Source of the DNA: a virus
Direction: 5' to 3' (one strand)
Virus record (IMG/VR): IMGVR_UViG_3300031933_000381
Coordinates: 1-35,047 of that record
Length of the DNA stretch: 35,047 nucleotides
In this document: piece after piece, positions 5,163 to 35,047 of the stretch
Position numbering within the stretch: position 1 is the first letter of the stretch
Layout: every line of letters begins with the position of its first letter
Made by a program: the position numbers and the translations under genes
Notes under the pieces: model-generated
Told to the model about the DNA's origin: nothing
The model's input: the letters and a program-made list of their open reading frames with translations, nothing else
Databases searched by the model: none

Positions 5163-5767
5163 TAAAACGCCTCACGCCCTTTAATTTTCCAGCTGGTAAC
5201 TATGCCGTTTTTATACTGCGCACTAGCAAGCCCTTGCTTATTATCAGCAAGTCGAAACAACCCAGCTGGTTGCTTAAATGTAATAAGGGTATTTTCTTCA
5301 GGTATTTTTCGTACAGGAGACTCAAAAATAGCCGTCGCTTGGCCAACTGAGTCACTTACCAAGTCAGCCGTTAATATTTTAAGTTCAGTGTTTTGGCCAA
5401 CGCCCACTTGCATACGTTCGCCGGCAACCAGTAAGGTTTGGTTAGCGGGTAGCGCATATAAATTTAAAATATTACCGTCTTGGTTTGCACCGCGCACATA
5501 GCCCGTAAAGTCTTTATCTAGCTGCTCACGGCGGTAATCAATTAAGGTAAACGTGCCCACTTGCCCGCGTAGGCTGGCAATAAAGCCATCAAGGGCTAAT
5601 GCATCACGCTCAGGCACATTGGCAAGTTCAATTTCAAATTCCCAGTAAGCACCTTCAAGGTCATAAACCTCAGTGGCGTTATTGGCTTTGTTTAAATGAG
5701 TTTGGCTATTGGGCACTAACGTAAAGTTAGAAATCTTAGGCCGTTTGGGTAAGGGGAGTGGTTGCAT
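5162..5767 (-). CDS. Minor tail protein (distal tail / hub component)
   Basis: About 201 residues from the ATG at 5767; an upstream in-frame TTG at 5776 is possible but less likely. The N-terminal half has the pattern YWEFEIELANVPERDALALDGFIASLRGQ, followed by FTLIDYR, seen in hub and distal-tail proteins of siphophages. It is first in the leftward operon that runs through the DUF2163-like, DUF6950 and J genes, and it is separated from the tape measure gene by a 145-base non-coding gap that carries a predicted activated promoter (-10 at 5802-5807). The exact family is uncertain. Confidence 0.7.
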   Translation of the reverse strand: MQPLPLPKRPKISNFTLVPNSQTHLNKANNATEVYDLEGAYWEFEIELANVPERDALALDGFIASLRGQVGTFTLIDYRREQLDKDFTGYVRGANQDGNILNLYALPANQTLLVAGERMQVGVGQNTELKILTADLVSDSVGQATAIFESPVRKIPEENTLITFKQPAGLFRLADNKQGLASAQYKNGIVTSWKIKGREAF

Positions 5768-5801
5768 CGTTACCAAGTTTCATAATAAAACACTGGTAAC
5801 G

Positions 5802-5847
5802 AGTATAAAATTTAAGGGGTAAGCTTTCGGCTGGAAACCGCTTTACA
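5802..5847 (-). promoter_or_regulatory. Predicted activator-dependent promoter of the distal tail operon
   Basis: Motif copy GCTGGAAACCGCTTTACA at 5830-5847 (reads TGTAAAG-N3-TTTCCAGC leftward) stands exactly 22 bp before TATACT (plus-strand 5802-5807). No -35 hexamer is present at the usual place. The layout matches that at 14834-14879. Confidence 0.65.
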
Positions 5848-5872
5848 TACAGCGTTTATATAGTGTAAAGCG
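5839..5872. repeat. Inverted repeat CGCTTTACA / TGTAAAGCG
   Basis: Perfect 9-bp arms (5839-5847 and 5864-5872) separated by 16 bp. The left arm overlaps the activator motif, so the gap may carry a second half-site or a second protein contact. Confidence 0.6.
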
Positions 5873-5912
5873 CATTTATCATAGCTAACTGGTTATAAAA
5901 CACAACAAAAAG

Positions 5913-8900
5913 TTAAGCAGCGCCCCGAACCGCACGAATAATTGCGCCATTACTTTGTATATTAGCCACAACAACACCCACTACTTGGCGTGCTATGTCT
6001 TGGCCAACTGCTTGCGAGTTTTGCTCATTAGTTGAGCCTTGCACCGTAATTTGGTTGGTAATACTAATACTAACCCCGCCAGAACCAGCATCATTAGCAG
6101 CGCCGCCTGCATTGTAACGCCGCGCCATTTGGCTAATTTCTGTATTTTGTTTCGGGCTTAATACACGCTCACCGCGTTGTAATACATAGGTAGATTCATT
6201 CGGCACATAATCTAAACCACCGTGCGCAATACCAGCCGGTTGCTGAGCTTTTATTTGGCGAACTTGTTGTAAGCCCGTTAATACAGCAGCTGCAGCTGCA
6301 ACACCACCAAGTACAGGGCCAACAATAGGAATAGGAGCCAGCGATGTAAACGCCGCTGTTGCGCCTTGGTAGGTATTAATAACCGCTTGCGCAATAGCAA
6401 ACGCCTTGTAGGCTTTAAACGCTGTTTTGCTTTGGCCAGCCATAGTTTTAAACGTGGCTGCACCAATACCTACAACTGTTTTAGCTTTCTCAGCATTTGT
6501 TTGTGCTTCAAAGCTAGCTAATGCTACAAGCTGACTTTTCATTGCAGGTGCATATTGATCTGCAAATGCACCCATTAAACGCTGTAAATGTGCGGTATCC
6601 TCTTGCTCTGCTAAGCTATTAAAACCCTGTATTTGCGCTATGTTCTCATCAGCCCACTCACGCTTATTGCGCAATTGTATTTCTCTTAACCTTTCTTGGT
6701 GGGCTTCCTCGTCTGCTTCTTTTTGAGTTTGAAAACCTCTCGCTGCTAGTAATTCTTTTTCACGTTCTAACTGTAAAATTTGATTGTTAGCATTATAAAC
6801 AAGCTCTTCTTTTTCATCTTTGACACCAATAGAGCTTCGTCGCTTAGCATCAACCCGCGCCTGTTGGCGTGCTTGCTCTACACTCAGTTCATTGTTGTAA
6901 GCGGCCAGTGCCTCACGCCCAGCAAAACCCTTTACAGTAGCAATACGGTTTTCTAAGTCGCGCTGTAAATCGTTTTTACGTTTTTCTTCAGCTTGGTTTT
7001 GTATACGTGTTTTTTCGGTTTCACGTTTTTGTGCAATGGTTTTTAGGTCTTCACCGTATTTAACATCAAGCTGCTTTAAAATGGCGTCATATTTAACTTT
7101 GTTAGCAGCATCGTTTTCACGGGCAACGATCACCATTTGCTTGCGTTTTTCGTAACTGTCTTTTAAGCGGGCCTCTTCGCCCATTAAGCTTACTTCTAAA
7201 CGCTTAATGTTGTCGGGCAGGGCGCTTGAGCTAACAGGGGCAGGCTTAGGCTTTTCAGTTTCTTTAATTGCGAGTACTTGTTGCAGTGCCACAATTTCAT
7301 TTTTAAGGTCGGTAACGCGTTTTTCAGCCGCCTCTACGTCAGAAAACCTACCTTTTAAGAATGGGTTGTTAAAACGATCCCGTGCTTCATCTGCAAGTTG
7401 AATCGCGTTTTTAATACGCCCTTGAGCCATTAGCAGTAAGCCTTGCGCTTGGCTACCGGTTAAATTGGCATACGGGTTTAGGTCTTTACTGGCTTCTTTA
7501 AGTTTATTAACGGAATCGGTAGCGTCATCGCCCTGGCTTGCAAAGTAAGCAAGGCCAAGCCCTGCGGTAACAAGTAAACCTACAGGGCCACCTAATAACC
7601 CCATTACGGTACTAAGGCCACGCGCTGCTAGGGTCGCTCGCCCAGCGGCAGCAGTATAAATATTGGTTGCGGTAGTTGCGGCAGCTTGTGTTGCTGTATA
7701 GCGGGTATTAGCAGCGGCTAAACGGGCAACAGCAGCAGTACGTAAATTAGTAGTGTTAGCCACAGCAAGCGTATGTTGTGCATATGCTTTCATTTGTGCG
7801 GCGCGCTGTAGCTCTAATACCGCATTAGCTTGGTTTTGTTTTGCAAGGGCTGCATCCGCAATTAACGCGCGGTTCTTAGCGGCCACATTAGCAACATAAC
7901 CCGCAGCACTGGCGCTTAAACCCGCTACTAAATGGCCTGTTAATACCGTAGCCAATGCACCGGTAGCAAATACCAAATTATCAACAGCGTCTTCATTTTG
8001 GCGTAAATACGCCATGGTATCGGTAATTGAGTCAACCACGCTAGTTACAGCAAAATTTACTGGCTCTTCGTATTTACGTATTAAGCGCTGGTACTCGTTA
8101 CCCATTTCCGCAAAGCTGGTGTTTATTTTACCCTCAGTGGCCTCGGCCGCACCGGCATAATCATTTAATGCCTTAATGAGGTAATTTTTAAACATTTGGC
8201 TGGTTACTTGACCATCGTTCACCATTTGCCTAAAACCGCCGGCGGCTTTGCCTGCTGCTTTATCAAGTTTTTGTAAAAGCCCCGGCATGGGTTCTGTTAC
8301 TTGGTTTAACTCTTCCGCGCGTAAAACGCCGGCAGTCATGCCCTGAGTCATACCAAATAAGCTTTGTCCAAGCTGCACATTGCTCGCACCTGTTTTAGCG
8401 GCGGCGTTAGCCATGCCTTCTAAAATGGCTTTACCTTGAGTTTGGGTAACAACGCCTACTTCTTGCAGGGTTAAAATTTTACTATAAGAGTCTGCAAGGG
8501 TGGTGTAACCGGTGTTTAATCGGTCAGAGGTGGCAAATAAATACTCTTGTACTTTGGCATAGTTTTCAGCTGAGCCCGTCAACCCTTTTAAGCGGGTATC
8601 AAGCAACTGGGCTGCGCCCGTATCGCGCACAAACATGGTTGCCGTGCCAATGCCCACTAATGTCGTGAGCGTTGCACCTATTTGCCCATAGGCTGTATTC
8701 ATTAACCCCAACTGGCGGGTCATTGCGCCTTGCTGTTGCATAATACGGGCTTGGCTGGCACCTAATTGCTGATTTGCGGCAACTTGGCGTTGTACCGCTT
8801 GGGGAATGCGGTTTAGTTCGTTTACGTTTTGGCGCGCACCGGTGGTAACTGCTTTACCGTCATAACTTAAGCGTAACGCCAAATTCAAGTTGTTGCTCAT
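5913..8900 (-). CDS. Tail tape measure protein
   Basis: At 995 residues this is the longest complete protein, as expected for the ruler of a flexible tail. The N-terminal region (about 90-280) has the conserved tape-measure domain pattern (GLTGSAENYAKVQEYL, then MTAGVLRAEELNQVTEPMPG). Three hydrophobic segments follow: about 305-335 (FATGALATVLTGHLVAGL), about 430-455 (GLLGGPVGLLVTAGLGLAYF) and near the C-terminus (PIPIVGPVLGGVAAAAAVLTGL). A charged coiled-coil stretch lies between them. The protein sets tail length and is ejected into the envelope at infection. The ATG at 8900 has AAGG nine bases upstream and lies 41 bases inside the chaperone extension gene, as is common for chaperone-tape measure pairs. 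Confidence 0.92.
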   Translation of the reverse strand: MSNNLNLALRLSYDGKAVTTGARQNVNELNRIPQAVQRQVAANQQLGASQARIMQQQGAMTRQLGLMNTAYGQIGATLTTLVGIGTATMFVRDTGAAQLLDTRLKGLTGSAENYAKVQEYLFATSDRLNTGYTTLADSYSKILTLQEVGVVTQTQGKAILEGMANAAAKTGASNVQLGQSLFGMTQGMTAGVLRAEELNQVTEPMPGLLQKLDKAAGKAAGGFRQMVNDGQVTSQMFKNYLIKALNDYAGAAEATEGKINTSFAEMGNEYQRLIRKYEEPVNFAVTSVVDSITDTMAYLRQNEDAVDNLVFATGALATVLTGHLVAGLSASAAGYVANVAAKNRALIADAALAKQNQANAVLELQRAAQMKAYAQHTLAVANTTNLRTAAVARLAAANTRYTATQAAATTATNIYTAAAGRATLAARGLSTVMGLLGGPVGLLVTAGLGLAYFASQGDDATDSVNKLKEASKDLNPYANLTGSQAQGLLLMAQGRIKNAIQLADEARDRFNNPFLKGRFSDVEAAEKRVTDLKNEIVALQQVLAIKETEKPKPAPVSSSALPDNIKRLEVSLMGEEARLKDSYEKRKQMVIVARENDAANKVKYDAILKQLDVKYGEDLKTIAQKRETEKTRIQNQAEEKRKNDLQRDLENRIATVKGFAGREALAAYNNELSVEQARQQARVDAKRRSSIGVKDEKEELVYNANNQILQLEREKELLAARGFQTQKEADEEAHQERLREIQLRNKREWADENIAQIQGFNSLAEQEDTAHLQRLMGAFADQYAPAMKSQLVALASFEAQTNAEKAKTVVGIGAATFKTMAGQSKTAFKAYKAFAIAQAVINTYQGATAAFTSLAPIPIVGPVLGGVAAAAAVLTGLQQVRQIKAQQPAGIAHGGLDYVPNESTYVLQRGERVLSPKQNTEISQMARRYNAGGAANDAGSGGVSISITNQITVQGSTNEQNSQAVGQDIARQVVGVVVANIQSNGAIIRAVRGAA

Positions 8901-14833: not shown

Positions 14834-14879
14834 AGTGTATGCGGGGAGTGGCTATTGAACCGCTGGAAAAGACTTTACA
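14834..14879 (-). promoter_or_regulatory. Predicted activator-dependent promoter of the capsid operon
   Basis: Motif copy GCTGGAAAAGACTTTACA (14862-14879) is exactly 22 bp from TACACT (plus-strand 14834-14839) in the leftward direction, 64 bases before the protease start. Rightward, TATAGG at 14902 is a weak possible -10 for the 14944 operon, so the site may serve both sides. Confidence 0.65.
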
Positions 14880-14943
14880 GCGTTAACAATGGGGTAACCT
14901 ATATAGGCTAAGCGGGTATCAACCACACTGCAAGGAATATTTT

Positions 14944-15159
14944 ATGGCGCACTGCAATTTATGTAACAACCCTCTAACTCAAGGCGAAATAACGTTTCTT
15001 GACGGCCAATGCTCAAACTGCGAATTTGATGCCCACGCCCAGGCGTTCTCACTTTGTAAGTCCTGCAATAGCCCACTGTACACACCCATTAAGTTAAACG
15101 GCGAGTTTTACTGCTCAAATAAATGCGCGCATAAAAAGGAGCCAAGACGTGGGCGTTAA
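14944..15159 (+). CDS. Small zinc-ribbon protein
   Basis: A 71-residue protein with four cysteine pairs: CNLC (4-7), CSNC, CKSC and CSNKC. Two small zinc ribbons or knuckles are likely. The C-terminus is basic (HKKEPRRGR). It opens a three-gene rightward operon with a membrane-anchored peptide and an XRE regulator and lies directly opposite the leftward capsid operon. Its function is unknown; nucleic-acid or protein binding are the usual roles of such ribbons. Confidence 0.65.
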   Translation: MAHCNLCNNPLTQGEITFLDGQCSNCEFDAHAQAFSLCKSCNSPLYTPIKLNGEFYCSNKCAHKKEPRRGR

Positions 15160-25007: not shown

Positions 25008-25205
25008 ATGGCTAATTACGAAGAGTACCAAAACTTTACTATTAACCCGCGTAAGGCCGCTTATACAGAGGAAAAACGCTACCGTAATGTAAAAGAAAAA
25101 GACAAGCAAAAATGCCGTGTTCGCCGTGATGTAGAAGCCTACCAAGAGCAACGCCGAATAGATCGCGAGCACGGCTTAGATTATTTATTTGAGGAGCAAT
25201 CATGA
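25008..25205 (+). CDS. Small basic/charged early protein
   Basis: A 65-residue protein starting right after the GemA stop and ending with an ATGA overlap to Mor. It is highly charged (KRYRNVKEKDKQKCRVRRDVEAYQEQRRIDREHG), probably one long helix. The overlaps on both sides argue that it is translated. Family unknown. Confidence 0.55.
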   Translation: MANYEEYQNFTINPRKAAYTEEKRYRNVKEKDKQKCRVRRDVEAYQEQRRIDREHGLDYLFEEQS

Positions 25206-25606
25206 GCGAATCAAGCATAGATTTACGGGCATTACCCCACGGCCTACGTCGCATTGTTAAACACTTAGGGGTTGAACAAACCATTGCCGTACTTACCGAG
25301 CAACAAGGGCAAATGTTTTATATTCCTGAAAAGCCTACCGAGGATCACGAAGTAGTTAAGGTGTTTGGTAAAGCCCTGGTACAAGAGCTAATAAATGCCA
25401 ATGTAGGCTCAAGCTACCAAATACCCATGTTGCACAAAGTGCTTATGCAAATTCGTAATCAACAAATTTGTGAGGCGCTAGACACCAAAGCCTGCAACAT
25501 TCAACAGCTGGTTAAGCGTTTTAAAATAACACGCCAGCAAGTAAGCAGTATTTACAGTGCATACCAAGACGAACGGGCGCACGAGACACAACTTAACTTA
25601 TTATGA
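25202..25606 (+). CDS. mor: Mor-family transcription activator
   Basis: A 134-residue protein matching the Mor/C family: an N-terminal dimerisation part (LPHGLRRIVKHLGVEQTIAVLTEQQGQMFYIP), the conserved GSSYQIPMLHKVLMQIRNQQICEAL segment and a C-terminal helix-turn-helix (NIQQLVKRFKITRQQVSSIYSAY, about 98-120). Mor activates the Mu middle promoter and C the late ones by binding a dyad just upstream of promoters with poor -35 boxes. Only one Mor/C member is visible here, so it may do both jobs. The five-copy motif described in the findings is its likely target. Confidence 0.88.
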   Translation: MSESSIDLRALPHGLRRIVKHLGVEQTIAVLTEQQGQMFYIPEKPTEDHEVVKVFGKALVQELINANVGSSYQIPMLHKVLMQIRNQQICEALDTKACNIQQLVKRFKITRQQVSSIYSAYQDERAHETQLNLL

Positions 25607-25800
25607 AACATAACAATTTTGTACTGCTTACTGCGTTGCAACTTAGCGGCGGCGCTAAACCTAAGCAGTGGCAGTACGAATATGGTTTAAACTTGTTAGC
25701 CCGTTACATTAACCAACGTAAAACTATGGGATTAAATGTAACGGGTTTAATGGATGAATATAGGGAGGCGTTTAGGGAGATTAAAGTGAAGTTTTCATAG
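25603..25800 (+). CDS. Small protein at the end of the early operon
   Basis: A 65-residue protein whose ATG overlaps the Mor stop (ATGA). The sequence GAKPKQWQYEYGLNLLARYINQRKTMGLNVTGLMDEYREAFREI is helical and basic. It overlaps the end of the convergent DUF4145 gene by 20 bases. No family recognised. The tight coupling to Mor suggests a real gene, perhaps linked to Mor function. Confidence 0.55.
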   Translation: MKHNNFVLLTALQLSGGAKPKQWQYEYGLNLLARYINQRKTMGLNVTGLMDEYREAFREIKVKFS

Positions 25801-26446
25801 GTGGTTTACCTATATCAGCTAACTTTTTATTTAAAGCCTCTTGTTTTTCTTTCAGCATGCTTGGTTGGACATAGTAAAAATCAAATAATAGCTCCAATAC
25901 ATCTAAATTCCACTGCGCTTCACCTGCTTCAACTTCAACTATTTCACCAGTTGAATCACTTTTCATCGGATGTGCTGCAAAATTACCTATTTGCCGAATC
26001 GAATCAATTGCATCAGCGATGTAAGAAGGTAGGCTAACCATAGCTTGCTCTATTTCTTTAATCAAACTGCCTTCGTTTATATTCTCTTGGTCCCTTAATG
26101 TAGACTGTAAGCACCTTCGGCTAAGTGCAGCACTCGCTTTAGGACTGTCGTTTAATATCAAGCTAGCCTCTATAAAATCTTTTTTTAAGTCTTCTGGTAC
26201 AGCAGCATGAGGCGTTTTTACGTTACATGCTTTAGGGTAAACAAGGATTTTGTCTACTGGTATCAATTGCCCAATTTGAAAAGCATCGCTAGGGTATTCT
26301 GTCTCGTTAAGTTCTAGATAAATTAAAAAGTTACCGCAAGCGGAACATTTATCCTCTAGAATAAACCACGTCCCTTTTTTATCTTCTCCAATTAAATTCT
26401 TACGGAAATTAACGTGGATATTTACATTACAATGTGGGCACTGCAT
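25781..26446 (-). CDS. DUF4145 protein with N-terminal zinc ribbon (likely cargo gene)
   Basis: A 221-residue protein. CPHC (3-6) and CSAC (34-37) form an N-terminal zinc ribbon. The C-terminal two thirds match DUF4145 (SPKASAALSRRCLQSTL ... IADAIDSIRQIGNFAAHP), a domain that also occurs in restriction enzyme subunits and proteins linked with phage defence. It is oriented against its neighbours, looks more AT-rich than they do and interrupts the Mu-like order between Mor and the late genes, which marks it as an inserted cargo gene. A motif copy with a weak -10 stands upstream. A defence or exclusion role is possible but not shown. Confidence 0.8.
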   Translation of the reverse strand: MQCPHCNVNIHVNFRKNLIGEDKKGTWFILEDKCSACGNFLIYLELNETEYPSDAFQIGQLIPVDKILVYPKACNVKTPHAAVPEDLKKDFIEASLILNDSPKASAALSRRCLQSTLRDQENINEGSLIKEIEQAMVSLPSYIADAIDSIRQIGNFAAHPMKSDSTGEIVEVEAGEAQWNLDVLELLFDFYYVQPSMLKEKQEALNKKLADIGKPPMKTSL

Positions 26447-26524
26447 TTCTTTCCTTAATTAATAAAAATGTCGTTTGAATAAAAAATAGCGTTCTACCCT
26501 TGTAATGGCAAGCCTTTTTAATTT

Positions 26525-26601
26525 AACCTAATAAGCTAGCTCTAAAACCCCCAGCCGCAAACAACTTTACAGTGTTACCCAATCCCCTAAATTGATTTAC
26601 T
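26525..26601. promoter_or_regulatory. Activator motif between DUF4145 and the rightward late operon
   Basis: Motif copy GCCGCAAACAACTTTACA (26554-26571). Rightward, TTTACT (26596-26601) is placed as expected for activation from the dyad and would start RNA at about the ATG at 26608; TTTACA-16-TAAATT is an alternative. Leftward, TAGGTT lies 23 bp away, toward the DUF4145 gene. Confidence 0.5.
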
Positions 26602-26607
26602 ACCAGC

Positions 26608-26862
26608 ATGACAAATACAGTGCATGCGCCATTTATTGAGTTATTAGCTCAACAAATTATTAAGGCCAGTTCTAAAGCCGAGCAAATTGCGATTTCTCGC
26701 CGTTGCCCGTTAAAAGACCTGCCCGCATTGCGTACCCGCGTGAAAGAGCTGCTAAACCCAGCAAATAAAAAGCCGGTGCGTAATACCCGCTTACCTGCCT
26801 GTTACGTCCTAGTAAAGCAACGTTTAACCAACAAAATAAGGACTCAACAGCATGGCTCTTAA
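26608..26862 (+). CDS. First gene of the rightward late operon, unknown function
   Basis: An 84-residue basic protein (ISRRCPLKDLPALRTRVKELLNPANKKPVRNTRLPACYVLVKQRL). No ribosome binding site is visible before the ATG, while a -10-like hexamer ends six bases upstream, so a leaderless transcript is plausible. Its end overlaps the endolysin start by 11 bases. The family is not recognised; the position suggests a lysis-module or late regulatory protein. Confidence 0.55.
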   Translation: MTNTVHAPFIELLAQQIIKASSKAEQIAISRRCPLKDLPALRTRVKELLNPANKKPVRNTRLPACYVLVKQRLTNKIRTQQHGS

Positions 26863-27295
26863 ACAAAGAGTGGCCGTTCCTACTGCCCCAAGTTTTATAT
26901 TTCAAGAGTTGGTACCTAAAGCCACGTTTGAACTATTTAACGATACCCCATTATTTTTAATTCATTTATTTGATGATCGCGCATTGCGCATGCTGCAAAA
27001 ACTACGCGACACGTTTGGCCCATGCACCGTAAACAACTGGTATTTTGGCGGCGCAAATCAATACCGTGGCTACCGCCCACTTGATTGCACCATAGGTGCT
27101 AAACGCAGCCAACATAAACTAGGCAAAGCATTCGACTGCAGCTTTAAAAACTACACTGCTCAACAAGTACGTGACTACGTATTAGCCCACCCGCAAGAAT
27201 TCCCGTATATCACCGCCATTGAAGGTCAAGTGAGCTGGTTTCATTTTGATGTGCGCACGCCTACCTGGACGGGCATTAAAGTATTTAACCCGTAA
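26852..27295 (+). CDS. Endolysin, peptidase M15 family
   Basis: A 147-residue protein with the M15 zinc site: His and Asp in SQHKLGKAFDC (about 87-97) and a second His in SWFHFDVR (about 130-137). The preceding GGANQYRGYRPLDC also fits the phage M15A family. These enzymes cut peptide cross-links in peptidoglycan to release progeny. There is no signal peptide, so it needs a holin. AAGGA stands upstream of the ATG. It heads the lysis-packaging part of the late operon. Confidence 0.85.
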   Translation: MALKQRVAVPTAPSFIFQELVPKATFELFNDTPLFLIHLFDDRALRMLQKLRDTFGPCTVNNWYFGGANQYRGYRPLDCTIGAKRSQHKLGKAFDCSFKNYTAQQVRDYVLAHPQEFPYITAIEGQVSWFHFDVRTPTWTGIKVFNP

Positions 27296-28149: not shown

Positions 28150-29888
28150 TGGCCGATATGAATTCACGCGAGTTTTTAGCTGAAATAGAACAAATAACCG
28201 GTTCGCTACGCCGCGATATTGAAGCAAAAGAGCGCAACATAGACCCAAGTCCCGCAGCAATTAAAGCACGTCGTAAACGTGTACTTGGCGGCGATTTTGA
28301 GTTTTTTGTTTATACGTATTTTCCGCATCATATGTGGCTTGACGACGATCAAACAGCGTCTGAGTTCCAAAGCTATTTTATGAACTGGTTTCCCGAAGCA
28401 CTCAAGCTTAAAAATGGCTGGAAAAACTGGTTTGTAGCCCCGCGTGGTGAGGGCAAAAGTACCCTTGGGGTAAAAATTGCCCCTGTGTATGTAGCGGTGT
28501 TAGCGCTATTGCAAGATCCTGAGATTTGCCAAGACCTGGGCCTTGCCAAAATAAAGCAATTTATTGATTTTGTAATTTTGTTTGGCGCTGAAACAAAAAT
28601 GCCAACCAAAACACTCGAGGTGGTTAAAACCGAGCTACTTAACAATAATAATCTTGCGTTAGACTTTCCCGAAGTGTGCCAAAAATCCCCTGTATGGAAG
28701 TTAGGCGAGTTTGTAACAGCGCAAGGCGTACGCTTTGAAAGCCGTGGTGCTGAGCAGTCAGTACGCGGTACGTTCCATGGTGCCAGCCGCCCTAAGCTAC
28801 TGCTATCCGATGACATTATTACCGATGCCGAAGCTAAATCGCCCACAGAGCGTGATAACCGTTGGCGCTTTTTAGAAGCCGCCGTGCAATACCTTGGCCC
28901 ACCCGATGGCACCGTTAAATTTTTAGGTGTAAATACTGTATTAAATAACGATGACCCAATAAGCCGCGCCGAAGAAGCGCCTGGGCATATTGTTCACCGC
29001 TTTAAAGCCATTAAACAAATGCCTGAGCGTATGGATTTATGGGAAGAGTGCCGCGATTTAATGGTGCATGACGACAAACGCTTTGAAAAACGTGCTGCCG
29101 CAAAGGGTGAGGCCGTCTCAACAGAGCAAAAACCCTCGTTTAAATTTTGGTTAAAGCGCAAAAAGCAAATGCTTAAAGGTGCCCAAACCAGTTGGCCAAG
29201 TGTGCGTACACTCTACGATTTAATGTGTATGTGGGCTGCTAATAAACGTGAGTTTAACCGCGAAATGCAAGGCATTGCCAAAAGTGACGAAGAAGCCATA
29301 TTTTACCAGTTTGATTTTTGGGTAGACCGCTTAAACGAATGGATACCTTATGGCGCTTGTGATCCAAGTATGGGCAAAACAGAAAAAGCCGATCCCAGTG
29401 CTATATTAGTGGGTTTTTATTCCCAAGATTTACAAAAGCTGCACGTTGAATACGAAAGCCGTAAGGTTCGTGGTACTAGCCGTTTACTTAACGACTTAAT
29501 TCGCGCCCAAAAAGAATATAACTGCCGCGTATGGGGCTTTGAAAATAACAATGCCTTTGATTTTATGCGTAGCCAATTTATTACTACAGGCTTAGAGCAA
29601 GGTATAGCACTGCCTTTACGTGGTGTTACAGCAACCATATCTGCAGAGGAACGTATAGGCTCACTTGAAACTTATGTTACCAATACGCCGGCACAAATTG
29701 CCTTTCATTCACGGTGTCGCTTACTACTCGACGAGCTTGAAAACTGGCCCGAAAAGCAAACAACCCATCACTACGATTTAAGTTGTGCCCTGGCTATTTT
29801 ATGGATGATAGCCAGCACAGGGGCAGGCGGCGTTCCTCGTGTAAATAGCCGTAAAGTGACAAAACAAATAAGGGGCTATCATGTTTAA
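28149..29888 (+). CDS. Terminase large subunit
   Basis: A 579-residue protein. Walker A is APRGEGKST (97-105) and Walker B KLLLSDD (216-222). The C-terminal nuclease has acidic residues in YGACDPSMGKTEKADPS (about 393-409), WGFENNNAFDF and THHYDLSCA. It pumps DNA into the prohead and cuts it when full; Mu-like phages package by headful from the phage end into flanking host DNA. Residues 3-28 (DMNSREFLAEIEQIT onward) resemble the C-terminus of the accessory protein at 15920, an unusual link. The portal start overlaps the 3' end by eight bases. Confidence 0.92.
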   Translation: MADMNSREFLAEIEQITGSLRRDIEAKERNIDPSPAAIKARRKRVLGGDFEFFVYTYFPHHMWLDDDQTASEFQSYFMNWFPEALKLKNGWKNWFVAPRGEGKSTLGVKIAPVYVAVLALLQDPEICQDLGLAKIKQFIDFVILFGAETKMPTKTLEVVKTELLNNNNLALDFPEVCQKSPVWKLGEFVTAQGVRFESRGAEQSVRGTFHGASRPKLLLSDDIITDAEAKSPTERDNRWRFLEAAVQYLGPPDGTVKFLGVNTVLNNDDPISRAEEAPGHIVHRFKAIKQMPERMDLWEECRDLMVHDDKRFEKRAAAKGEAVSTEQKPSFKFWLKRKKQMLKGAQTSWPSVRTLYDLMCMWAANKREFNREMQGIAKSDEEAIFYQFDFWVDRLNEWIPYGACDPSMGKTEKADPSAILVGFYSQDLQKLHVEYESRKVRGTSRLLNDLIRAQKEYNCRVWGFENNNAFDFMRSQFITTGLEQGIALPLRGVTATISAEERIGSLETYVTNTPAQIAFHSRCRLLLDELENWPEKQTTHHYDLSCALAILWMIASTGAGGVPRVNSRKVTKQIRGYHV

Positions 29889-31383
29889 AAGCAAGCCACG
29901 TATTACATCAAAAGCATACGCTGCGCTTAACCGTATGTTTGACCAAAACCGCTTAGATCCAAGCCTAACAGCGCTTATTACTGAGCTACCAAACCCAGAT
30001 CCAATACTGCGCCGTGCGGGTAAAAACACGGCTATTTATGAAGAAATAGCCCGTGATGCACACGTTATTGGAGAATTGCGCTCACTGCGTAGTGGCTTAT
30101 TTAGCTTTAATACTGAGCTTGTGCCAGGCGGTGACGACGCAGCCAGTTTAAAAAGTTATGAGTTAGCTAAAGCCTTTTTTGCCCGTAAACCATGCCCACA
30201 TACCGAATGGGCCGATATGGACTGGCACAATTACAGCGCCATTTTAAACGGTTTTAGTGTTACTCACCTTGGCAAGTACATTAAAAACAAAGACCATTGG
30301 CAACCCGAATACGTAGAAACATGGCGTAACAGCCGCTTTGCGTTTAATAGTGATCACGAGCTATTAGTAAAAACCAGCGAAAACCCACAGGGTGAAATAG
30401 TCGATTCTCGTCGTTGGTCGTGTGTTCGCCATATGCCAAGCGCAGAAAACCCGTATGGTATTGCATTATTAAGTAGTTGTTTTTGGCCATGGACGTTTAA
30501 GCATGGCGGCTTTAAGTTTTTTGTACAGCTGTGCGAGCGCTTTGGTATTCCATTTCCTGTGGGTAAATACCCAATAGGCAGTAAAGATAAAGACATAAAT
30601 AACTTACTTGATGGGCTAGCTAAGCTTGTTCAAGACGGCATAGCCGCCATACCCGATGACACCAGCATTGAAATCATCGAAAGCAAGCTATCTGGCGAGC
30701 CAGTGCCCGAGCGCTTGGTTAACTTTTGTAATGCTGAAATAAGCAAAGCTTTAACCAGTCAAACCTTAGCAACAGAGCAAAAAAATGGCGGCGCACGTGC
30801 TGCCAGCGAAACTCATGCAAAACGTGCTGGCGACAACCAACGCTCAGACAGGGCGCTTGTAGCGTCATACCGCAATCAGCTTTTAAATTCGCTTCATACA
30901 GTAAATTTTGATGGTGGCGAACCGCCAAGATTCATCTTTAAAGACAAACGCGAAATTAACACCGACACCGTAACCCGCGTGCGCGAAACAGCGCGTATTG
31001 TCCCAGTTGGTGAAGACTGGGCTTATCAAGAGCTCGGTGTACCTAAACCAAAAGACGGTGAAGCAGTACTTGATGTGCCCGACGAAGGCCATGGCATTGC
31101 AACACCTGCTAAAACCGAGTTTGCCAAAAAGCCAACTGAAAGCGTAGAGCTTACCAACGAGTTAGATGTGTTTGATCACGCGACAGACGACACCATTAAA
31201 CAGCTTTTTAATTTTGCTCAGGCATCAAAAGACCTGGACGAACTTAAACAAAAAATCACCTCACAATTCCCCGATATTTCAGACTCTACGCTGGTGCAAG
31301 TAGCCCAAACAGCAATGGAGTATGAGTTTATGGCAGGCATGAACGAGGCTAATTCTAAAACTGTGGAGATAGACAATGAATAA
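29881..31383 (+). CDS. Portal protein, DUF935 (Mu gp29-like)
   Basis: A 500-residue protein with AAGGGG six bases before the ATG. The pattern (IARDAHVIGELRSLRSGLFSFNTELVPGG, then DWHNYSAILNGFSVTHLGKY and RHMPSAENPYGIALLSSCFWPWTFKHGGFKFFVQLCERFGIPFPVGKYP) is characteristic of the Mu-type portal family. It forms the ring through which DNA enters and to which the tail attaches. The C-terminal part (about 380-500) is acidic and helical. It overlaps the DUF3164 gene by eight bases. Confidence 0.92.
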   Translation: MFKSKPRITSKAYAALNRMFDQNRLDPSLTALITELPNPDPILRRAGKNTAIYEEIARDAHVIGELRSLRSGLFSFNTELVPGGDDAASLKSYELAKAFFARKPCPHTEWADMDWHNYSAILNGFSVTHLGKYIKNKDHWQPEYVETWRNSRFAFNSDHELLVKTSENPQGEIVDSRRWSCVRHMPSAENPYGIALLSSCFWPWTFKHGGFKFFVQLCERFGIPFPVGKYPIGSKDKDINNLLDGLAKLVQDGIAAIPDDTSIEIIESKLSGEPVPERLVNFCNAEISKALTSQTLATEQKNGGARAASETHAKRAGDNQRSDRALVASYRNQLLNSLHTVNFDGGEPPRFIFKDKREINTDTVTRVRETARIVPVGEDWAYQELGVPKPKDGEAVLDVPDEGHGIATPAKTEFAKKPTESVELTNELDVFDHATDDTIKQLFNFAQASKDLDELKQKITSQFPDISDSTLVQVAQTAMEYEFMAGMNEANSKTVEIDNE

Positions 31384-34663: not shown

Positions 34664-35047
34664 ATGGAATTTGTACGCCCACTCGAACCAATTTTAATTA
34701 TTGATGATGTTAAACAGATCCGCGCTGATTTAAGCCAAGTATTAGCCGGTTTAGGTTTTGATGACATTATTGAGTGCGATAATTTTAATTGTGCTAAACC
34801 TCTGCTTATTGAAAAATCACCCAACGTTATATTCTTAGATGTTGATTTACCTGATTCTGAAAGCATTGAAATTTTAGAGTCGATTAACAACGAACACCCT
34901 CATGCACATGTTGTTATGTGTTCAGGCCACAATAGCTTTGAAACAGTGCAAAATACCTGGGAGCTAGGCGCAAAAGAATTTATAGCTAAGCCCTTTAACG
35001 CGCAAAAAGTTGATGCGGTAATGAAACGTTTAGAACTCATAGATTAA
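34664..35047 (+). CDS. Stand-alone response regulator receiver domain (host gene)
   Basis: A 127-residue protein consisting only of a CheY-like receiver: acidic pair Asp14-Asp15 (LIIDDV), phosphoacceptor Asp59 (VIFLDVDLPD), Ser87 in VVMCSGH and Lys109 in FIAKPFN. There is no output domain, so it would act through protein partners, as CheY-type or relay proteins do. Its partner is not in the window. It is not part of the phage set and marks the right flank as host chromosome. The stop falls on the last base of the window. Confidence 0.9.
   Translation: MEFVRPLEPILIIDDVKQIRADLSQVLAGLGFDDIIECDNFNCAKPLLIEKSPNVIFLDVDLPDSESIEILESINNEHPHAHVVMCSGHNSFETVQNTWELGAKEFIAKPFNAQKVDAVMKRLELID

Follow-up and report, generated by a model that had tools for sequence, protein, structure and literature searches.

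The window, i.e., the whole 35,047-nucleotide stretch of DNA analysed here, is a 35-kb virus record and a Mu-like prophage, encoding two Mu-type transposition genes, a Mor-family activator, GemA, a terminase, a portal and a Mu F-like gene. Endolysins 85-97% identical are present in four named Pseudoalteromonas genomes, hence the host is probably a marine bacterium, Pseudoalteromonas. At positions 34664-35047 the window also holds a partial ORF with a response-regulator receiver domain, located after an AT-rich stretch, that may be host flank or more cargo. The genes and features around the locus considered here, a DUF4145 gene inserted in the rightward series formed by Mor, 25603-25800, 26608-26862 and the endolysin, are the following:

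25202-25606, forward strand: Mor-family late activator (PF08765, E 1.3e-8; phrog_836, E 1.9e-20)
25603-25800, forward strand: last gene of the early series (65 aa), which anchors the slot on the left, present in 24/24 anchored relatives
25781-26446, reverse strand: DUF4145 gene, 221 aa, from the ORF list and family matches
25781-25800, both strands: convergent overlap of 20 bases between the 3' ends of the cargo gene and the last early gene
25856-26206, reverse strand: predicted HEPN-like four-helix domain, residues 81-197 (AlphaFold2 and the match to 2hsb)
25970-25996, reverse strand: codons of R151-x7-H159, putative RNase site (invariance and the spacing in 9y9c)
26297-26446, reverse strand: zinc ribbon at the N-terminus, residues 1-50, modelled as strands by AlphaFold2
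26483-26511, reverse strand: tentative leftward sigma-70-like promoter, TTGCCA-17-TATTTT
26497-26519, forward strand: right edge of the slot, with the remaining half of a hairpin whose left arm is gone in the window
26560-26574, forward strand: activator-like motif AACAACTTTACAGTG, assigned to the late operon and not to the cargo gene
26608-26862, forward strand: 84-aa gene next to the slot, which it anchors on the right, present in 24/24 anchored relatives
26852-27295, forward strand: endolysin (phrog_894, E 1.9e-20)
29881-31383, forward strand: the phage's own portal gene (phrog_113, E 4.4e-77), a speculative trigger

The original prediction had described a leftward, AT-richer gene for a zinc-ribbon DUF4145 protein that breaks the Mor-to-late gene order, and this description holds in full. 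Coordinates and strand agree, the leftward gene sits between the rightward genes 25603-25800 and 26608-26862, and its GC content is 0.368, whereas the 43 other likely genes of the window average 0.440 (sd 0.031); among the 44 it ranks second lowest in GC and lowest in GC3. The protein belongs to Pfam DUF4145 (PF13643; 47.5 bits versus a curated cut-off of 23.1, E 1.9e-12), and the ribbon cysteines C3, C6, C34 and C37 are invariant in all the sequences of an alignment of 13, the window protein included, covering most of their length. It further matches phrog_1305 (E 6.9e-30, residues 2-208), while its sole PADLOC match is PD-T7-4 (E 2.1e-22, 77.6 bits, residues 2-163), covering positions 15-158 of the 211 of that model; NCBIfam gave no match for the protein.

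Relatives were compared across the slot, which was anchored by the early gene 25603-25800 on its left and by 26608-26862 on its right. The 26 close relatives comprise 24 of the 25 viral contigs found through the endolysin (L006-L029) and two found through the terminase (L154 and L167), L030 being excluded from the count as an endolysin match without the anchors. Other contigs were dropped because they duplicated, by eye, the slots of L010, L013, L019, L023 and L016 (L031-L034 and L092), had the matched part inside a long ORF resembling terminase (L004, L005), were the same contigs as L002 and L003 (L038, L043), had a broken frame (L050) or had no long ORF at the chosen point (L119); more distant slot relatives were kept out of the 26. 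The original prediction had proposed this comparison of the gap among related prophages as a check, with fixation of the gene in all relatives as a core gene counting against it, and the outcome was the reverse: none of the 26 close relatives carries the DUF4145 gene, and in nine of them the slot is filled by a different AT-rich gene (GC 0.29-0.33), 230 aa or longer. PADLOC defence or candidate-defence models, many of them candidates (PDC) rather than tested systems, were matched by seven of these nine cargo genes, and by none of ten other window genes used as control (resident phage genes rather than a random set of accessory genes). The slot contents were:

L007: AbiJ_NTD4/DUF7014 protein (PDC-S32), with a similar protein in L010
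L009, L011, L014 and L019: PDC-S49-type protein with a P-loop, recognised by eye
L012: 476-aa protein with TPRs
L024: 233-aa protein
L027: FRG protein (PDC-S15)
L013: 209-aa ORF, apparently broken cargo
L029: 154-aa ORF, not AT-rich
Remaining 15 of the 26: small ORFs only (118 aa or less)

The same place, conserved flanks and exchangeable cargo are the marks of a hotspot and, given its absence from all 26 close relatives and the other defence-like genes that the slot holds elsewhere, the DUF4145 gene is accessory cargo of this Mu-like prophage. A passenger of no current use to the phage could likewise be sporadic and AT-rich, and the seemingly broken cargo of L013 would suit such a fate; nevertheless, an open frame, residues invariant throughout the subfamily and a slot repeatedly filled with defence-type genes make this quite improbable.

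Several features of the slots were observed alongside. The cargo of L012 (3212-4642, reverse strand) has its TPRs in the C-terminal part and an N-terminal part without a family match; a search for further viral contigs with this cargo found none, and its single-sequence structure model (pLDDT 34) was set aside. The PDC-S49-type proteins are nearly identical in their N-terminal ~200 residues and then diverge (L009 and L014 versus L011 and L019, by eye), as if this cargo were recombining in modules. Among the more distant relatives, only L094 has, by eye, AT-rich cargo with an ORF of 200 aa or more: its leftward cargo in the same slot (5692-6432 and 6566-6814, plus strand of L094; GC 0.32; 246 and 82 aa) had no PADLOC match, and the ORF of at least 200 aa no Pfam match. 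A conserved 72-81-aa gene (MSGA[RK]E...) occurs mostly in slots without large cargo (L006, L008, L017, L018, L020, L023, L025, L026, L029, L154 and L167). A second variable place lies between mor and the 65-aa early gene, where L006, L010, L013 and others have short ORFs (83 or 100-102 aa) that contain cysteines and the window has instead a 4-base overlap (25603-25606).

On the left, identity among relatives ends within the final codons of 25603-25800, and the left-edge alignment shows the C-terminus of its product varying with the cargo. On the right, the relatives agree again from about 26497, halfway through a hairpin of the form GGCTTGCC-N10/11-GGCAAGCC-TTTT, which in many relatives reads as a rightward terminator. 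Allowing a loop of up to 11 and leaving L013 unscored, the hairpin was found in 11 of the 13 compared relatives with small ORFs only, and also in L029, L027 (leftward cargo), L009 and L014 (rightward cargo); by the same search it was absent in the window, L007, L010, L012, L024, L008, L021, L011 and L019. By eye, the stem is shorter and the loop longer in L008, L021, L011 and L019, and L024 has a weaker stem. Terminator loss as a rule for leftward cargo was thus borne out in part, clear loss being confined to the window, L007, L010 and L012.

The leftward promoter-like site spans the right edge of the slot, so that the conserved flank would supply its -35 and the cargo its -10. Two sites of this sigma-70-like type occur in the window versus 3.7 expected in shuffles, i.e., without enrichment, and since such sites are no commoner than in shuffled sequence the promoter is a suggestion only. 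The upstream gap also holds the activator-like motif, from which the original prediction had derived that the gene may be expressed late or in both states. The copy at 26560-26574 does lie in the shared gap, about 110 bases upstream of the DUF4145 start codon, but it gives no ground for assuming late expression: it reads rightward into 26608, and its core CTTTACA is kept at the same place in 23 of 24 close relatives whatever their cargo (L013 is without the core), none of them with the DUF4145 gene. As the motif points away from the gene and is kept where the gene is absent, late expression is unsupported; the gene itself faces the early operon, and the motif fits the late operon as its probable owner. 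That the DUF4145 gene is a late gene turned on by the Mor-type activator through this motif, as the distance to its start codon could have suggested, appears accordingly most unlikely. Counting motif copies gives no support either, with two in the window (up to two mismatches) against a mean of 1.0 in shuffles. The second, weaker copy (14868-14882) lies in the gap before the leftward head-protease gene and upstream of a rightward 71-aa ORF with paired cysteines (14944-15159).

The AlphaFold2 model of the protein, built on the 13-sequence alignment (pLDDT 86, pTM 0.68), presents N-terminal strands followed by helices. Foldseek alone found no PDB match at E 0.001 or better, and two matches, without names, among viral models. 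With a second-look structural aligner, residues 81-197 matched the HEPN structure 2hsb (Z 13.1, 110 aligned residues, rmsd 2.8), and other HEPN structures followed at lower scores (1wol Z 10.2, HepT 9.6, SO_3166 9.3, AbiV 8.7). These values place the domain in the HEPN fold with caution, as bundles below Z ~13 can match by chance and the unrelated bundle of Roquin ROQ also reaches Z 9.4 against the window model; 9y9c aligns poorly to it (Z 5.2, rmsd 6.5). The protein is thus modelled as a zinc ribbon plus a HEPN-like helical bundle, and DUF4145 is placed in the HEPN superfamily in the literature, where fusions with zinc ribbons and restriction proteins are listed (PMC3710099), in accordance with the earlier claim that the domain occurs with restriction systems. 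The active-site motif given for HEPN domains in the same source is Rx4-6H, while domains without it may only bind RNA (PMC3710099). In the 13 aligned sequences, R151, G154, N155, A158 and H159 are all invariant, and the R-x7-H spacing is common to the window protein and 9y9c. A spacing of seven lies outside four to six, and for this reason the protein is not classed as a canonical HEPN RNase; the HEPN-like fold and the invariance of R151 and H159 nonetheless suggest a catalytic, RNase role for these two residues.

PD-T7-4 (PADLOC PDLC04109), the closest defence model, is an anti-phage system (PMC9519451). Among 108 Pseudoalteromonas genomes its model matches proteins in 10, with strong scores of at least 219 bits in five, and one of the strong proteins, L099, matches 9y9c at E 2e-80; based on this match and on the title of the PDB entry, 'RAZR:GP77 complex', the 9y9c protein belongs to the PD-T7-4 family. 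The model is also matched by 13/13 members of the subfamily of the window protein, whose profile finds 10 of the 108 Pseudoalteromonas genomes, five of them those with strong PD-T7-4 proteins, and nine in a sample of 369 genomes from the class. Like PD-T7-4/RAZR, the window protein has a zinc ribbon followed by DUF4145/HEPN and the R-x7-H spacing, and they have in common the blocks DyxEA, SPK.AAL.R.cLQ and R..GN.A.HP; it differs in its C-terminus, in its 27% identity to L099, in its 77.6 bits versus the 313.4 of a clear member (clear members spanning 3-208 of the model) and in its position. In the second tree, indeed, a nine-row PD-T7-4 clade with support 100/100 excludes the window protein, as does the PD-T7-4 clade of the first tree, which included the long branches later removed (L110, L115, L116 and L118) and ordered the other groups differently. 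Owing to the low identity, the low bits and the position outside the clade, the protein was not filed as PD-T7-4; these comparisons define it as a sister subfamily of PD-T7-4/RAZR, which may well work like PD-T7-4.

The orientation of the gene towards the early operon, where it ends 20 bases inside 25603-25800, has a parallel in Streptococcus phages (SM1, PH15, SVep1 and the Javan group), whose phrog_1305 proteins are about 29-36% identical to that of the window. Fourteen records matched and 11 were used, H2 and H7 being second records of included phages and H12 a near twin of H11; with Javan115 excluded as cut at the gene, ten had both flanks. In all ten the 3' end of the DUF4145 gene runs convergently into that of a small opposite-strand gene, by 4, 18 or 25 bases; in nine, the exception being Javan326, the annotated neighbour upstream also lies on this opposite strand, which from the annotation we read as the lytic one. 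The Streptococcus genes lie in the repressor region, whereas the window gene lies before the late genes. Eight of these records entered the trees (Javan64 and IPP16 stand outside), each placed either within the PD-T7-4 clade or on a second branch and, being mutually related and forming two branches, the ten records amount to about two cases. Twelve other viral-contig homologues, read with a simple ORF picker and not counted as support, showed in several instances a downstream ORF facing the gene, and no convergent overlap as clear as that of the window. Within the slot itself, cargo ORFs of at least 200 aa run leftward in six cases (window, L007, L010, L012, L024, L027) and rightward in five (L009, L011, L014, L019 and the ORF of L013), and the latter rule out antisense placement as a rule of the slot.

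The position facing the early operon, as in the ten Streptococcus records, suggests that antisense early transcription might silence the DUF4145 gene on induction, a proposal that we put forward tentatively. The overlapping early gene is present in 24/24 anchored relatives, none with DUF4145 cargo, and is therefore not specific to the cargo; if silencing occurs, transcription is a likelier cause than a dedicated inhibitor. The same facing and overlapping arrangement could instead indicate a regulator of the prophage's own cycle, with leftward transcription or an RNA-binding product (a HEPN domain that lacks the motif may do no more than bind RNA; PMC3710099) damping mor and the early operon in the lysogen, and defence being secondary or absent. 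All 26 close relatives, however, are without the gene, hence the switch does not need it, and R151 and H159 are invariant, so that we regard a regulator as improbable. A counter-defence or host-takeover gene of the lytic cycle, which a phage-encoded gene adjoining the lysis genes might be, is very unlikely, because its orientation opposes the lytic transcript, its best model match is a defence system and its slot neighbours are defence-type.

Taken together, PD-T7-4 as sole PADLOC match, the matches of 13/13 subfamily members and the company in the slot argue strongly for a defence gene. The original prediction had seen in it a good candidate for such a function, and gains weight from its being accessory cargo, from its best defence-model match and from the defence-type genes that occupy the slot elsewhere. 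Our preferred reading, to which we assign a probability of about 0.65, is a prophage-encoded anti-phage gene carried as exchangeable cargo. In the lysogen a leftward promoter belonging to the gene would drive its expression, the ribbon part of the protein would help to recognise a component of an incoming phage, and the HEPN-like domain would, via R151 and H159, cleave RNA and halt the growth of phage and cell; on induction, rightward early transcription would oppose the gene, which would be off before the phage's own portal is made. RNase action through the HEPN site is a probable part of this scheme. RAZR is activated by a ring-shaped phage protein such as portal and then cleaves RNA; a ring or portal as trigger is a doubtful part here, and any link of the phage's own portal gene to the DUF4145 gene is speculative. 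The R-H spacing of seven, the 27% identity to PD-T7-4 with a position outside its clade, and the chance-level promoter site count against the preferred reading, as do the structural results (the negative Foldseek search, the poor fit to 9y9c and the scores of unrelated bundles), the five rightward cargo ORFs and the candidate status of several of the PADLOC models.

A wider reading, which we consider unlikely as a whole, is that DUF4145 zinc-ribbon HEPN effectors in unrelated temperate phages, here Streptococcus phages and a Mu-like phage with a Gram-negative host, would converge on lytic early transcription and would thereby be silenced by induction itself before ring proteins appear. The phage's own late ring proteins would otherwise trigger the effector, the window protein would represent a second ring-sensing RNase branch, and the slot would be a source of undescribed defence genes (L012, L024, L094). 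More immediately, the analysis adds a sister subfamily to PD-T7-4/RAZR, shows that the slot in Mu-like Pseudoalteromonas phages yields further defence candidates, some without a family match, and offers a simple testable idea of how a prophage may avoid its own defence gene, namely orientation against the early operon.

Among known systems, the window gene is thus a new relative of a known defence family and not a new kind of system. BxaP, a DUF4145-domain protein that protects against T4, is described as BREX-linked and longer, with a second C-terminal domain (PMC10799925), and this description sets it apart from the window protein. Tha, of S. aureus prophages, is a HEPN defence protein encoded in antisense overlap, on in the lysogen and off upon induction (PMC11087260). 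The 20-base antisense overlap of the window gene with a lytic-strand gene resembles it in placement. The switch-off of Tha is reported to depend mainly on a dedicated small protein, Ith (PMC11087260), of which no counterpart was seen in the window; the account of Tha also gives a canonical Rx4H and mentions no zinc ribbon (PMC11087260). As for the slot, no title or abstract opening found in the open-access literature describes it. The closest likeness is to the defence hotspots of P2-type prophages, where exchangeable defence cargo likewise occupies a fixed place between conserved phage genes (PMC9519451), the slot of the window differing in belonging to a Mu-like phage of Pseudoalteromonas and in lying between the early and endolysin operons.
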